From contig NZ_JACGWT010000002.1 in assembly GCF_014137855.1 (NCBI RefSeq), forward strand, positions 62,001 through 126,000: a stretch of 64,000 nt of DNA. The letters are read 5' to 3'. Shown here piece by piece: positions 39,580 to 60,208 of the stretch (positions within the stretch are counted from its first letter, which is position 1; each line of letters starts with the position of its first letter). The DNA is from Microlunatus kandeliicorticis. Its GTDB lineage: Bacteria; Actinomycetota; Actinomycetes; Propionibacteriales; Propionibacteriaceae. The notes under the pieces were generated by a model. It made no database searches. It saw nothing but the letters and a program-made list of their open reading frames with translations, and was not told the origin of the DNA. A program made the translations under genes and the position numbers.

Positions 39580-39693
39580 CGCTGAGCCTGTCGAACGCGC
39601 TTCGACAGGCTCAGCGCACGTTCGGGCGCTTCGACAGGCTCAGCGCACGCGTCTCCGGCTCAGCGCACGATGCGCGCTTCGACAGGCTCAGCG
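39580..39693. repeat. Cluster of four 19-bp interspersed repeats, one inverted
   Basis: A minus-orientation copy (CGCTGAGCCTGTCGAA, 39580-39599) sits head to head with a plus copy at 39598-39616, so the two can form a stem. Further plus copies are at 39627-39645 and 39675-39693. The cluster lies between the converging aldo/keto reductase and DUF1707 genes. Confidence 0.9.
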
Positions 39694-54594: not shown

Positions 54595-55224
54595 TCAGCG
54601 GCGCTGACCGGGCCGGAAGGCGCTGACGTACCGGTCGCCCGGGATCCAGAACCGCCAGGGAAGGTCGACCGAGCGGCTGATCCCGACCCGGGGGCCGGTG
54701 GCCACCTCGGGCGCGTGGGTCCGCGGTTCGAGCCGGAGCGGGACGCCGTCGATCTCCGTCCCGGCGAGCAGGTCGGCGCCGTAGTGCCGGCGGTCGATCC
54801 CCAGCGCCTGGGTCAGCCGGCCGGGACCGCGGGCCAGGTCGCGGTCGGTGACGCGGGGCCCGCGCCGGTCGCGGGCGAACTCGACCCCGTCGATGACCTC
54901 GCCGGCGCGGAGCAGCACCGCCGCACCGTGCCCGACCTCGGAACAGCTGACGTTGGCGGCCCAGTGCATGCCGTAGCTGAAGTAGACGTAGAGCCGCCCG
55001 GCCGGGCCGAACATCACCCGGGTGCGGTCGGTCTCGCCGCGGAAGCTGTGCGACGCCTCGTCGACGCGGCCGTCGTAGGCCTCGGTCTCGACCACCCGGA
55101 GGGCCACCGGACCGTGCCGGAGCACCGCACCGAGCAGCTCGCGCGCCGCGCCGACCGGGTCCCCTTCGAGCGCCGTGCGCAACCGGGTCCTGGCCTCGGC
55201 GGCGGCCGGCTCCCCGTCCGTCAC
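54595..55224 (-). CDS. DNA-3-methyladenine glycosylase (AAG/MPG type)
   Basis: 209 residues, GTG start. Family signatures are ARELLGAVLRHG, RVVETEAYDG (catalytic Glu), DEASHSFRGETDRTRVMFGP, GRLYVYFSYGMHWAANVSC and GPGRLTQALGI. It excises alkylated purines, such as 3-methyladenine and hypoxanthine. Its GTGA start overlaps the stop of the PEP-synthase-like gene, so the two are translated together although functionally unrelated on paper. Confidence 0.95.
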   Translation of the reverse strand: MTDGEPAAAEARTRLRTALEGDPVGAARELLGAVLRHGPVALRVVETEAYDGRVDEASHSFRGETDRTRVMFGPAGRLYVYFSYGMHWAANVSCSEVGHGAAVLLRAGEVIDGVEFARDRRGPRVTDRDLARGPGRLTQALGIDRRHYGADLLAGTEIDGVPLRLEPRTHAPEVATGPRVGISRSVDLPWRFWIPGDRYVSAFRPGQRR

Positions 55225-57842
55225 CCGACGCGGTCGAGCAGCTCGACGGTGCCGTGCGTGCCGTCCACCCGGACTCGGTCACCGGTCCGCAGCACCCGGG
55301 TCGCGTCCCCGCACCCCACCACCGCAGGGATCCCGAGCTCCCGGGCCACGATCGCCGCGTGCGAGAGCGGCGCACCCACGTCGGTGATCACCGCGCGGAC
55401 CCGCGGGAACAGCGGCGTCCAGCCGACGTTGGTGACGTTGGTGACCAGCACCTCCCCGCTCTCCAGCTCGGCACTCTGATCGGTCGACTCCAGCACCCGG
55501 ACCACGCCCTCGACCACGCCGCCCGAGCCGGCGAACCCGGTCACCGTGGCCGAGCCTCCGGCACCGTGATCGGCACCGGCCGACCGACCATGATCACGAT
55601 CATGGTCGGCGCCCTCCACGAACACCGCCAACGGCCGGTCCGGGTCGGCGGCCCAGGCGAACGGGTCGAACCGGCCCATGATCACGCTGGGGTAGGCCGG
55701 CAGCGCGCTGTAGGCCCGGAAGGCCCGCTGGCGGTCCCGCAGCTCGCGCTCCTGCAACGGACGCCCGCCCAGCAGCGCGACCACCTCGTTCCAGTCGTGG
55801 GCGAAGACGTCGTCGCCGATCCCGCTGAGCTCGCCGGCCCGCACCCAGAACGCGCGCAGCACCCAGAAGAACCGCACCACCTCCGAGCGCGCCTCCTCGC
55901 GTCGGCGGGAGATCTGCGTCCACTTCTCGATCTTGTTCCGCACCGACGCCACCCGGTGCGGGTGCTCGCGGGAGAACCGGGCCCAGGCGTCGGCACGGGC
56001 CCGCTCCTGGCGTCGGAGCAGCTCGCTCACCGAGTAGTCGGCCGCCCGCTGCTCGGCGACGGTCCGCTCGATCCAGGCCGGGTCCTCGGCCGGCCGGGGC
56101 ACCGAGATCTCGAACTCGTGCGGGCCGCGGTGCCCGTAACGGTCGCGGAAGCCCTCGACGTCGAGATCGCCGTCGGCCAACCGCTCCAGCCCCACCAGCG
56201 GACCGAGGCTGGCCAGCTCCCCGTCGGTGCCGCCGAGCCCTGCGAGCAGCCGTTCGGTGTCCTCCAACCCGACCGCGCGCTGGAGCGACCGACGGAGGGT
56301 GACCAGCACCGGGCCGTCGCTCCGGGTGGCCGCGGTCAGCATCCCGGTGGCGGCGTGGAACTCAGGGTGGATCACCTCGGTCCACAGCCGGGCCAGTTCG
56401 GTCGGGTCGTCGACGGCGGCGATCCGCTCGCGCAGCCGGCGGCAGTGCGCGGGGTGGTCGGCCAGGTAGTCGGGCAGCCGCCGGATGTCGCGGCGGGCGT
56501 GCACGGTCATCGACAGCGCGACCGGGACGACGAGCCGGATCACCCGGGTCGGCGGCAGCGGGAGGTAGGGGATGGGCAGGTCGTCGGGCAGCCGACCGAA
56601 GACCTCGTGGGTCAGCCGACGGAACAGCCGCTCCCCCACCCCGGCGCAGCGGGCGATCGAGGCGGCCATGCTGAGGTTGAGGTAGAGGCGCCCGCCGACG
56701 ATCCCGAAGGCGACGTACGGCGGCACCGAGCTGGTCGGCATGGCGTCGGCGAGGAACTCGCGGACCAGGCACCAGGTGGCCGGGGTCATCACGTCGGGGA
56801 TGGCCTCGCCGACGTTGCCGCGGGTCCACAGGCAGGACACCGCGCGGCTGTCGTTCCAGGGGTCGGGGCGGGCGCCGGCGGTGATCGGCCGGGCCTGCAG
56901 CACCGCGAGCTCGTCACCGACCCGGGCCCACTCGATGTCGACCGGGTGGCCGTCGAGCTCCGCGACCCGGGCGCCGAGCGCGGCCAGCCGCCGCGCCTGC
57001 GCCGGCTCGAGCGACGGCCGGGTCCGGCGGGCGGCGGGCACCGGGCGCTCGGTGGTGCCGCCGCGGGTCCGGACCGTCATCACCGTCTTCTCGGCCACCG
57101 TGGACTCGAGCACGCGGTGGTCGTCGGCCGCGATGCGGAACCGGTCGGGCGTGACGATCCCGCTGACCACCGCCTCGCCGAGACCCCAGGCGCTCTCGAC
57201 GGTGATCATCGAACCGTCGCCGGTCACCGGGTCGGCGGTGAACAGCACGCCGGCCGCCTCGGCGTCGACCATCCGCTGCACCACCACGGCGAGCGCGAGG
57301 TCGTCGTCGGCCACCTGGTGCTCGGCCCGGTAGCCGACGGCGCGGGCGCTCCACAGTGAGGCCCAGCACCGTCGGACGGCGTCGAGCAGCGCGCTCGCGC
57401 CGGTCACGTTGAGCAGGGTGTCCTGCTGGCCGGCGAACGAGAGCCCGGGCAGGTCCTCGGCGGTGGCCGACGACCGGACCGCCACCCGCGGGCGCCCGAG
57501 CTCGCGGTAGGCGGTGGTGACCGCGGTCTCCACCGCGGCCGGCAGCCGCGCCTCGAGGAAGAGCTCGCGGATCCGGGCGGCGGCCCGGTCGGGCGGCCGG
57601 TGGGCGAGGATCGCGGCGACGTTGCGGTCGAGGCCGTCGGCGGCGAGCACGGCCCGGAAGGCGTCGGTGGTGATCACGAACCCGTCCGGCACCGGGACGC
57701 CGGCGGCCACCAGCCGGACGAGCGAGGCGCCCTTGCCGCCGAGCAGGGCGAGTGCGTCATCGCCTGTGGAGCGGGCGTTCGCGCCGGCGCTGTCGCCCGC
57801 GGCGAGCGGCAGCACCAGGCGCGCGGCCGCCTCCGGGGTCAT
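55221..57842 (-). CDS. PEP-synthase/rifampin-phosphotransferase-like protein
   Basis: 873 residues, ATG start. An N-terminal ATP-grasp-type domain (about 20-335) with GGKGASLVRLVAAGVPVPDGFV, AVRSSATAEDLPGLSFAGQQDT, FTADPVTG and IEWARVGDELAVLQARPIT leads to a helical middle (about 350-750), as in rifampin phosphotransferase. The C-terminal swivelling His domain has PLSHAAIVARELGIPAVVG; the phosphoryl-transfer His is near residue 826. It could inactivate rifamycins or act on PEP or another acceptor; rifampin as substrate is not demonstrated. A His/Asp-rich insert (ADHDRDHGRSAGADHG, about residues 745-760) lies between the middle and His domains. Confidence 0.88.
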   Translation of the reverse strand: MTPEAAARLVLPLAAGDSAGANARSTGDDALALLGGKGASLVRLVAAGVPVPDGFVITTDAFRAVLAADGLDRNVAAILAHRPPDRAAARIRELFLEARLPAAVETAVTTAYRELGRPRVAVRSSATAEDLPGLSFAGQQDTLLNVTGASALLDAVRRCWASLWSARAVGYRAEHQVADDDLALAVVVQRMVDAEAAGVLFTADPVTGDGSMITVESAWGLGEAVVSGIVTPDRFRIAADDHRVLESTVAEKTVMTVRTRGGTTERPVPAARRTRPSLEPAQARRLAALGARVAELDGHPVDIEWARVGDELAVLQARPITAGARPDPWNDSRAVSCLWTRGNVGEAIPDVMTPATWCLVREFLADAMPTSSVPPYVAFGIVGGRLYLNLSMAASIARCAGVGERLFRRLTHEVFGRLPDDLPIPYLPLPPTRVIRLVVPVALSMTVHARRDIRRLPDYLADHPAHCRRLRERIAAVDDPTELARLWTEVIHPEFHAATGMLTAATRSDGPVLVTLRRSLQRAVGLEDTERLLAGLGGTDGELASLGPLVGLERLADGDLDVEGFRDRYGHRGPHEFEISVPRPAEDPAWIERTVAEQRAADYSVSELLRRQERARADAWARFSREHPHRVASVRNKIEKWTQISRRREEARSEVVRFFWVLRAFWVRAGELSGIGDDVFAHDWNEVVALLGGRPLQERELRDRQRAFRAYSALPAYPSVIMGRFDPFAWAADPDRPLAVFVEGADHDRDHGRSAGADHGAGGSATVTGFAGSGGVVEGVVRVLESTDQSAELESGEVLVTNVTNVGWTPLFPRVRAVITDVGAPLSHAAIVARELGIPAVVGCGDATRVLRTGDRVRVDGTHGTVELLDRVG
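55584..55609. repeat. In-frame inverted repeat inside the PEP-synthase-like gene
   Basis: CCGACCATGATC-AC-GATCATGGTCGG is a perfect 12-bp inverted repeat with a 2-base centre. It encodes the HDRDHGR stretch between the middle and His domains, and resembles the TGATCA-rich tail of the phosphatase at 2335-2402. Confidence 0.75.
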
Positions 57843-57886
57843 GCAGGCAAGCTAACAGCGCCGCCGCCCGAGCCTTCCCGCGGCAG

Positions 57887-57931
57887 CGGGGGTGATCCGC
57901 ACCGATGACGGTGCGGATCACCCCCGTTGTC
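57887..57931. repeat. 45-bp palindromic element, left copy
   Basis: A perfect 17-bp stem, GGGGGTGATCCGCACCG (57888-57904) and CGGTGCGGATCACCCCC (57909-57925), with loop ATGA, is followed by GTTGTC. All 45 bases recur at 58999-59043 as the exact reverse complement. It lies 13 bases beyond the DUF559 stop and about 45 bases upstream of the PEP-synthase-like start, so it can also serve as a terminator. Confidence 0.9.
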
Positions 57932-57944
57932 GGGCGGGACGTCC

Positions 57945-58934
57945 TCAGGCCACCCGGCGGCACCGCGCGCACCGCGCCGGGAGCCCGGTCCAACCACGAC
58001 GGACCAGGTTCTCGGCGACCTGCGCGGCCACCTCGCACGGCCGGTCACGGACGTCGGACCAGCCGTACCGCAGGGTGGCCAGTCCGTCGGTGGTCGCGCG
58101 GTTGTCCCGGCGCATGTCGCGGAACCGGCCGGCGCCCTCGTGACCACGACGCCCGTCGAGCTCGACCAGCAGCCCGAAGTCGCGGTAGAGGACGTCGGCC
58201 CGGGTGTCGCGGCGACGGACCTGGCGTTCGGCGACCGGCAGCCCGTGGGCGCGCTCGACCGCGCGCAGGTAGACGAGCTCGAGCGCACTCTCGGCACCCA
58301 CCGCGAGGTCGTCCAGCGTCACCAGCAACCGGCGACGGTGCCGCAACCGTGCCCGGCGGTCCGCCGCCGCGCGGAGCCCGTGGACGGACACCCGCCCGGT
58401 CTGGACGGCCGCCGTCGTCCAGCGCACGGCGTCCCCGTCGGCGGCGACGAGGTCGAGGACCGTGTCGGTCAACCCCGTCCGGGGTGGAGAGCCCGGGCTC
58501 CGCGGGTCCCGGACGGCGGCCCGTTCGCGGACGAATGACCAGCGGCCCGCCCACCCTGCCGCACCCTGCCCCTGGTGGCGCGGAACCGTGCCGCCGTGCG
58601 GGACCAGGACGGTGATCAGCTCCGGAGGTTCGGGGTCGAGGCCCCAGAGGTGTCCGGCGGCCGCGCCCCCGAGCCGCGCCCGGTCACCACCGAGCAGGCA
58701 GCCGGCCCAGGCTCGGGTCACCCACGGTGGCCGGGCTCCCGGGGTTCCCGGCGGCCTGGCGGGGAACAGCCAGTAGACGCCGGGCGCCAGCCGGAGCCAG
58801 CGCCCGTCGGCCACGAGCCGGTCGATCGCCCGGGCGCCGAGACCGCAGCCCACCGCCTGCTCGCGGGTGACCACGCCGGCCTGGAGCAGCGCCAACCGGA
58901 ACAGCGACGGCGGGACGGGCTGGCGGGCGTGCAC
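57945..58934 (-). CDS. DUF559 endonuclease-like protein with AbiEi-type winged-helix N-terminus
   Basis: 329 residues from GTG 58934 (GTG CAC GCC); the frame remains open to a TTG at 59003 that lies inside the flanking palindrome. The N-terminal about 45 residues are an AbiEi-like winged helix (LALLQAGVVTREQAVGCGLG, GRWLRLAPGVYWL). The C-terminal about 100 residues are the DUF559, Vsr-like PD-(D/E)xK fold: ESALELVYLRAVERAHGLPVA, TRADVLYRDFGLLVELDGRRGH and FRDMRRDNRATTDGLATLRY. The Asp-ExD spacing supports a nuclease. Such genes are often multicopy in actinobacteria with unknown function. This one is bracketed by two identical 45-bp palindromes. Arg-rich composition resembles its neighbours. 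Confidence 0.85.
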   Translation of the reverse strand: MHARQPVPPSLFRLALLQAGVVTREQAVGCGLGARAIDRLVADGRWLRLAPGVYWLFPARPPGTPGARPPWVTRAWAGCLLGGDRARLGGAAAGHLWGLDPEPPELITVLVPHGGTVPRHQGQGAAGWAGRWSFVRERAAVRDPRSPGSPPRTGLTDTVLDLVAADGDAVRWTTAAVQTGRVSVHGLRAAADRRARLRHRRRLLVTLDDLAVGAESALELVYLRAVERAHGLPVAERQVRRRDTRADVLYRDFGLLVELDGRRGHEGAGRFRDMRRDNRATTDGLATLRYGWSDVRDRPCEVAAQVAENLVRRGWTGLPARCARCRRVA

Positions 58935-58998
58935 CCGAGGAGCATCGGCCGTCCGGCGGCGCCGATCCAGTACCCCTGTGGACAACTCCCTCGCGGAC

Positions 58999-59043
58999 GA
59001 CAACGGGGGTGATCCGCACCGTCATCGGTGCGGATCACCCCCG
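58999..59043. repeat. 45-bp palindromic element, right copy, inverted
   Basis: GACAAC then GGGGGTGATCCGCACCG (59005-59021), loop TCAT, CGGTGCGGATCACCCCC (59026-59042) and G. This is the reverse complement of 57887-57931. It lies about 65 bases upstream of the preferred DUF559 start and 28 bases beyond the stop of the Gfo/Idh gene, so it probably ends that transcript. Confidence 0.9.
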
Positions 59044-59071
59044 TTGTGCAGGAGTGGGACGGGGAGGAGGG

Positions 59072-60208
59072 TCAGACGGTCTGCCAGCTGTGGCTGTCGG
59101 CCGACCGGAGCATCGCGTCGCAGATCTCGGCGGCGCGCAGGCCGTCGGCGAAGGTGGGCAGGCCCTCGGGCGGCGTCCCGCCGTCGCGCTGGGCGTCGAT
59201 CGCGGCGTAGCTGTCGGCCACGTAGGCCTCGAAGCACTGGGCGTAGCCCTGCGCGTGGCCGGCGGGCAGGGTGGCCAGCCGGCGCTGCTCGGATGACCCG
59301 TGGTTGGGGTCGCGGACCAGCAGGCTGGTCCGGTCGTCCTCGCCGATCCAGAGCTGCTCAGGCTGCTCCTGGTCGAAGACGCCGCTCTGCTTGGCCCCGT
59401 CCACCTCGATCCAGAGCCGGTTCTTGCGGCCGGCGCACAGCTGGCTGATCACCGTCGAGCCGGGGACGCCGTTGCGGGTGCGGAACAGCACCATCGCGGT
59501 GTCCTCGGTGGTGACGTCGACCAGGGTCGACTCGTCGAGCTCGCCGGTGGCCGCGCTGAAGCTGTTGGCGGTGTCCCCCGGCCGGCGCGGGATGGAGATC
59601 CTCGTGGTCGAGACCAGCTCGGCGATCCGCTCGCCGGTCACCCACTCCATCAGGTCGCACCAGTGCGAGCCGATGTCGCCGAACGCCCGCGACGGCCCGC
59701 CCTGGCTGGGGTCGACCCGCCAGCTGGTCGAGCGGGGGTCCAGCAGCCAGTCCTGGATGTAGGTGCCGTGGGTCAGGAAGACCGGCCCGAACTCCTCGGC
59801 CTGCACCCGGGCCCGGAGCTCGCGGACCATCGGGTGGAACCGGTAGGCGAACGGCATCGTGTTGATCACGCCGGTGCGCTCGGCGACCTCGGCGGCCTGC
59901 CGGGCGTCCTCGAGGCTGACTCCGAGCGGCTTCTCGCACAGCACGTGCTTGCCGGCCTCCATCAGCGCGACCGCGTAGGGGACGTGCGAGGCGTTCGGGG
60001 TGCAGATGTGCACCGCGTCGACGTCGCTGGCCGCGACCTCCTCGATGCTGGTGAACGCGTGCTCGGCGCCCCACGCGTCGGCGACCTGCCGCGACCGCTC
60101 CGGGCTGGAGGCCATCGCCCCGACCACCTGCGCCCCGGCCAGCACCGCGGCCCGCCGGTGCACCTCGCCGATCATGCCCGCCCCGAGAATCGCCACCTTG
60201 CGCGTCAT
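59072..60208 (-). CDS. Gfo/Idh/MocA-family oxidoreductase
   Basis: 378 residues from ATG 60208; the frame extends far upstream only by chance. NAD(P) binding is VAILGAGMIGEVHRRAA, the catalytic-region motif is HVLCEKPLGVSLEDARQA (EKP), and GDIGSHWCDLMEWVTG holds the DxxxH of the family. It would oxidise or reduce a hydroxyl of a sugar or inositol. It stands alone; the catabolic cluster at 21-26 kb is not adjacent. Confidence 0.93.
   Translation of the reverse strand: MTRKVAILGAGMIGEVHRRAAVLAGAQVVGAMASSPERSRQVADAWGAEHAFTSIEEVAASDVDAVHICTPNASHVPYAVALMEAGKHVLCEKPLGVSLEDARQAAEVAERTGVINTMPFAYRFHPMVRELRARVQAEEFGPVFLTHGTYIQDWLLDPRSTSWRVDPSQGGPSRAFGDIGSHWCDLMEWVTGERIAELVSTTRISIPRRPGDTANSFSAATGELDESTLVDVTTEDTAMVLFRTRNGVPGSTVISQLCAGRKNRLWIEVDGAKQSGVFDQEQPEQLWIGEDDRTSLLVRDPNHGSSEQRRLATLPAGHAQGYAQCFEAYVADSYAAIDAQRDGGTPPEGLPTFADGLRAAEICDAMLRSADSHSWQTV

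Follow-up and report, generated by a model that had tools for sequence, protein, structure and literature searches.

We analyzed a nuclease-like gene located between two matching palindromes in a 64,000-nt stretch of the Microlunatus kandeliicorticis genome (contig NZ_JACGWT010000002.1, positions 62,001 to 126,000; hereafter the window, from genome G000), and found that matched bracketing by palindromes is a trait of the gene family to which it belongs. In this family many members lie between their own palindromes, which are dispersed in the genome where we searched for them, and the nuclease is unrelated to RAYTs. The explanation that we hold to be moderately probable is a unit resembling REP/RAYT systems, in which an unrelated PD-(D/E)xK-type nuclease would recognize, cut and move its own palindrome. 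The first-pass annotation of the locus had drawn this analogy. Its observable part now stands, in that palindrome pairs recur, control genes lack them and palindromes are dispersed; the analogy as a whole, which includes a putative recognition and movement of the palindromes, is supported in part.

The nuclease gene (57945..58934, minus strand) encodes a protein of 329 aa. It is followed by a palindrome at 57887..57926, with perfect 18-bp arms, the loop ATGA on the plus strand and imperfect pairing extending over 57881-57932, and preceded by another at 59000..59047, with perfect 22-bp arms and the loop TCAT on the plus strand. The presence of two bracketing hairpins with these loops agrees with the first-pass annotation, as does the perfect pairing of their stems, while the arms prove longer than the 17 bp it had given. 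The two palindrome regions are 93% complementary to each other over 56 nt and form a pair in inverted orientation; folding of the single strands gave -30.6 and -32.0 kcal/mol, with z scores of -10.2 and -12.0 (200 shuffles each). The neighbors are, according to Pfam, a PPDK_N/PEP-utilizers gene (55221-57842) and a Gfo/Idh/MocA gene with its stop at 59072, in line with their earlier naming as PEP-synthase-like and Gfo/Idh genes. The full stem occurs nowhere else in the window, as had been noted, although its 13-base half-stem GGTGATCCGCACC recurs at window position 1820. In the whole of G000 this half-stem is found 24 times, including 12 occurrences outside palindromes, for which codon usage may be the source, and the reversed string is found 0 times. 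A search of Rfam returned no match near threshold for the palindromes of the window, and we thus rejected a known RNA family as their identity. Comparison within the family indicates GTG at 58934 as the likely start codon; we prefer it because the alternative TTG at 59003, which would give a 352-aa reading and which we think unlikely, falls within the right palindrome. Between the upstream palindrome and this start lies the motif TTGTCCACA (58977..58985, minus strand), which occurs in part of the family.

The protein couples a Vsr-like nuclease part to an AbiEi-like DNA-binding part, an assignment based on the Pfam profile and on matches of the predicted fold. Pfam identified an AbiEi_4 winged-helix stretch (58773..58904, minus strand; residues 34-77 of the 352-aa reading) with an E value of 1.1e-10, and PADLOC matched AbiEi models only, in agreement with the winged helix previously proposed. 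The nuclease part (58008..58280, minus strand) carries the near-invariant residues E242, D270, E281, D283, H288, D296, R299 and D300 and a DUF559 match to residues 270-332 of the same reading, which at 14.5 bits is below the curated Pfam cut-off of 20.6. The Vsr-like domain suggested earlier is nevertheless upheld by conserved residues of catalytic type. In 116 family proteins, conservation is 99-100% at E242, H253, D270, E281, D283, H288, D296, R299, D300, C323, W338, C345 and C348 (all residues numbered after the 352-aa reading). These are what remained of 120 proteins after removal of L080, L089 and L155, which have internal stops, and of one protein of unfitting length. We take the acidic/histidine pattern to be a Vsr-like EDxHD site. 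Models of NCBIfam matched 0/4 family proteins tested. An AlphaFold2 model built from a 10-sequence alignment reached a pLDDT of 83.6, with residues 262-272 below 50, and its fold matched the AbiEi antitoxin 6y8q (E 2.1e-6), and, more weakly, two nuclease structures: the catalytic domain of the homing endonuclease I-Bth0305I (3r3p), with an E value of 0.016 and a target-based TM score of 0.65, and 3hrl, a putative endonuclease, with an E value of 0.025 and a target-based TM score of 0.81. The window protein thus resembles the AbiEi antitoxin in its N-terminal part, by profile and predicted fold, and differs from it by the added nuclease part. It also differs in context from AbiE type IV toxin-antitoxin systems, since its direct neighbors are other genes, and Pfam detected no AbiEii nucleotidyltransferase toxin gene among the two neighbors on each side. 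I-Bth0305I and the DUF559 nucleases share with it the weak fold match and the conserved acidic/histidine pattern, whereas the window gene is bracketed by palindromes, encodes an additional AbiEi-like part and is intergenic rather than in an intron or phage gene. Some copies in the family look decayed, with internal stops in L084 (G000:C1:33856-34848) and at other loci, and the Auraticoccus copy L008 shows an apparent frame change at its end.

Of 20 genomes from the window's genus, 17 contain homologues, and at E 1e-30 so do at least 143 of 391 in the order. We added 60 family places, fetched among the matches listed for the order, to other family loci and scanned 126 loci for flanking hairpins, of which 119 were non-redundant and had both flanks tested; left out were the duplicates L061, L092, L115, L132 and L181, the distant homologue L082, and L015, whose flank is incomplete. 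A strong hairpin was found on at least one side of the gene in 70 of the 119 loci and was absent from 49. In 59 of these 70 loci, the opposite flank of the same gene was the best match among all 119 opposite flanks, the first rank being narrow for L059 and L150. In six others it came second, because a single further locus, likely a homologous one whose palindrome is similar, scored as high or higher; in the remaining five (L072, L091, L119, L134, L149) no matching partner hairpin was found. With a cut at 70% identity, paired palindromes flank 62/119 family genes, compared with 0/41 neighboring genes (6 with any hairpin) and 0/17 Gfo/Idh genes (3 with any hairpin) in the same test. Matched pairs were found at genes of this family and at none of the control genes, a comparison similar to the check that the first-pass annotation had proposed. 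The trait reaches beyond the taxonomic family of the window: in Kineosporia (L013) a hairpin stands on both sides of the gene, and at the Haloechinothrix locus (L014) the flank downstream of the gene contains a match to the upstream hairpin.

The 62 pairs are direct in 49 cases and inverted in 13. When the two bracketing copies were compared, 218 stem pairs had changed, 177 on one side, 29 on both sides with pairing kept and 12 on both sides with pairing lost. Covariation of the stems was modest (29/218 compensated), and the mostly one-sided changes suggest that perfect pairing is under moderate selection at most, or else that many copies are decaying.

The palindromes are also found away from the gene, as we show for three palindrome families searched, of many. 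The window palindrome has six copies in its own genome, four of them away from the gene; each of these four adjoins an unrelated gene, no more than about 35 bp from its stop codon. The pattern has 0 occurrences in 146 other family genomes (147 searched in all). A second core, GTTGTGCA-N10-TGCACAAC, from the palindrome common to L139 and L172, has 19, 15 and 9 copies in G119, G084 and G335, respectively, and none in the remaining 36 of the 39 congeneric genomes searched, the reversed control also giving 0. Away from the gene lie 35 of these 43 copies, forming 27 clusters, which by simple GC3 gene calling are intergenic or overlap doubtful ORF ends only; names of the genes beside them (purB, rpsB etc.) were judged by eye, without family search. 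Matches of at least 60 bp between second-core loci consist of singles of about 60-70 bp and of doublets of about 110-130 bp at a spacing of 73-74 bp, and the remaining flanks are mostly unrelated, some homologous genes excepted. The third core, CGTGCCGCG-N4-CGCGGCACG, is present in six, two and one copies in G018, G059 and G098, respectively, and in none of the 17 other genomes of the window's genus (20 searched; reversed control 0); G059 has an additional, more diverged copy that does not flank the gene. The single copy in G098 has no cognate gene assigned to it, and the palindromes that flank the G335 gene are unlike those dispersed in that genome.

The gene context of these sites bears on whether the hairpins simply end the transcription of their neighbors, their likeness arising by chance or gene conversion, which was the plain alternative stated at the outset. 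The two window hairpins are close to stop codons, at distances of 18 bp (stop at 57945) and 24 bp (stop at 59072), and the four dispersed copies in the same genome, near stop codons as terminators would be, occupy three convergent gaps and one codirectional gap. However, a T-tract following a GC-rich hairpin was found at 0 sites in window 57700-59200, matched pairs are a feature of the gene family that the control genes lack, and the 27 clusters of G119, G084 and G335 fall between codirectional genes in 15 cases, divergent genes in 9 and convergent genes in 2 (1 unknown). We consequently regard the view that the palindromes are terminators alone as very improbable. Because the T-tract is missing and 9/27 clusters are between divergent genes, termination is not the common role of the palindromes, though it may occur secondarily where some of them lie. 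The six sites in G018, G059 and G098 comprise three codirectional and three convergent ones.

The same distribution is relevant to a regulatory explanation, according to which the protein would be an autoregulator by virtue of its AbiEi-like part, with the palindromes as its operators, at its own gene and in a small dispersed regulon. AbiEi binds inverted repeats at its own promoter, as excerpts of PMC3985639 report, the predicted fold of the window protein matches AbiEi, and part of the dispersed copies are between divergent genes. On the other hand, dispersed sites include codirectional and convergent gaps too, a matching palindrome also follows the stop codon of the gene, the nuclease residues are near invariant, and near-perfect arms over 40-50 bp would exceed the needs of an operator. 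Taken together, we consider this explanation unlikely.

Each gene appears to be matched to a palindrome of its own. Same-genome paralogs with detectable hairpins had unrelated palindromes in 16/16 pairs tested. Across loci, similar palindromes were frequent only where the proteins share 60% identity or more: there, 7 of 15 locus pairs reached a palindrome score of 18, compared with at most 2% of locus pairs in each of the lower, non-syntenic identity classes; L074 and L081, a pair with no usable protein identity value, also reached this score. Orthologous loci may carry quite different palindromes (e.g., L076 vs. L088). In the genus of the second core, the cognate proteins of G084, G119, G335 and G354 share 63-71% identity among themselves, whereas 18 other proteins of the genus that were compared are at most 48% identical to them; the palindrome of G354 is a variant outside the reach of the search pattern. 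Shared ancestry could be the cause of the co-occurrence of gene and palindrome across species. At the center of the palindromes, a motif like GACTAC or GAACTC was found in 29/65 centers vs. 5/65 arms, and exact GACTAC in 11 centers vs. 1 arm (n = 65 each), a signal that is suggestive only because the pattern was picked after inspecting the loops. The 200 nt that precede residue 24 contain TT[AG]TCCACA in the forward direction at 43/119 loci and in reverse at 5, against a frequency near zero elsewhere in the loci; this motif, which takes the form TTGTCCACA in the window, resembles a DnaA box.

The arrangement is most readily compared with REP/RAYT systems (TnpA_REP, REPtrons, REPINs), in which the gene also lies between its own palindromes and the palindromes are also scattered between genes as singles or doublets. 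The 73-74-bp doublet period is close to the 71-bp spacing that excerpts of PMC3116915 give as common in one REPIN group. RAYTs are described in PMC3116915, PMC3733652 and PMC8266576 as occurring in single copy, being distinct from one another and accompanying the palindromes that they presumably spread, and this distinctness is paralleled here by the 16 of 16 paralog pairs that differ in palindrome. In contrast to RAYT, an HUH Y1 transposase, the enzyme is PD-(D/E)xK/Vsr-like with an AbiEi-like part; copy numbers, at most 19 per genome, are far lower than those of REPs; and the bracketing pair is mostly direct (49/62), unlike that of REP/RAYT. REP/RAYT palindromes bear a GTAG or CGTC tag at one foot; the recurrent GACTAC/GTAGTC-like motif seen here is in the center. 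IS200/IS605 elements have palindromic ends, according to excerpts of PMC8266576, and resemble the window unit in having one small nuclease-type gene between them, but here no Y1 transposase and no identical multicopy element were seen. A search for Y1_Tnp (PF01797) was positive in 0/13 genomes, including G000, G084, G119 and G335, with a control positive in 5/14, and we rejected a RAYT in the same genomes for this reason. Since this defining transposase was not found, we do not file the window system as a RAYT, although by analogy it may work like one.

We thus favor, as moderately probable, the REP/RAYT-like reading given above, because of the matched, locus-specific bracketing over about 40-50 bp and of the same-genome dispersal in three families. 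In this mechanism, the winged-helix (AbiEi-like) part would recognize its own palindrome, and the nuclease would nick or cut it at or near its center, perhaps when it is extruded as a hairpin or cruciform. Repair of the break would then copy the palindrome or doublet into new intergenic sites and also homogenize the two bracketing copies, such that the gene would stay single-copy while palindromes spread. Several observations count against this reading: the 49/119 loci without a strong hairpin and the 5/70 without a partner, the low copy numbers beside REPs, the mostly one-sided stem changes, the mismatch between gene-flanking and dispersed palindromes in G335, the G098 copy without an assigned cognate gene, and the four other copies in the window genome located near stop codons. 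It also weighs against it that no target-site duplication or exact junction was obtained from the empty sites of four relatives described below or from the comparison of a dispersed G059 palindrome with 20 genomes of the genus; in G088, the two neighbor genes match at separate places, which therefore gives no junction.

Empty sites between the two neighbors, which the first-pass annotation had proposed to look for, do exist. In 4/19 other Gfo/Idh loci (L095, L096, L097 and L107) a PEP-synthase-like gene directly follows, and neither a family gene nor a strong hairpin lies between the two neighbors; the other 15 have no PEP-synthase-like neighbor within the stretch examined. The PEP-synthase-like proteins at the empty sites are 50-52% identical, which is too low for an exact junction to be obtained. 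These sites are also consistent with a homing-type process, in which solo palindromes would be cut by the nuclease and the cassette copied in, its bracketing palindromes serving as homology arms; the solo palindromes would be targets, or scars of recombination between the two bracketing copies. The weak fold match to I-Bth0305I points in the same direction, as do the occurrence of cassettes from a single lineage at separate places (L139, L172, L162) and the gene orientation, which is reversed between species at some loci (e.g., L067 vs. L078). However, no two cassettes share a palindrome in a genome among the 16 paralog pairs tested, and no gene remnant was noticed beside dispersed copies, a possible promoter remnant at L223 excepted; we thus think it improbable that homing explains the system. 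Carriage as phage or plasmid cargo was rejected, as no protein match at E 1e-10 was found in the plasmid collection (72,556 records), a single partial match covering 34% of the query was found in an unannotated record of the phage collection, and one peptide pattern gave no match in viral contigs.

The chances seem to us about even that the REP/RAYT-like unit represents a second, independently evolved palindrome-spreading machinery in bacteria, in which a DNA-binding PD-(D/E)xK-type nuclease, each matched to its own palindrome, copies it via cutting and repair and not by HUH transposition. In the titles and opening lines of abstracts among the literature matches listed, which cover few subscription journals, DUF559 or Vsr-like genes joined with dispersed palindromes were not found. 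It becomes testable what spreads such repeats in genomes where no Y1 transposase was found, and genes without an NCBIfam name receive a hypothesis of function; the family would moreover be a source of many variant enzymes, each with its matched site.

Some further features were observed around the palindromes. Two or three palindromes stand in tandem with a 73-74-bp period in the upstream flank of L172 and at L220 and L221. In G018, two dispersed palindromes (L236:1488-1792 and L239) edge segments of about 305 bp that are 98% identical to each other and include a cobalamin riboswitch, the shared segment starting at the palindrome. At L223 (G335), in front of a gene identified by eye as rpsB, a dispersed palindrome precedes a stretch that contains TCCACAGG and GTGGTGATTC, like the region ahead of the L139 gene, and this stretch is possibly a cassette remnant. 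Finally, a hairpin on the string TTCGACAGGCTCAG is found at window 39580-39616, with a close variant in L100 near 2646-2702, beside the Gfo/Idh gene of G147; these hairpins perhaps form a separate, wider palindrome family.
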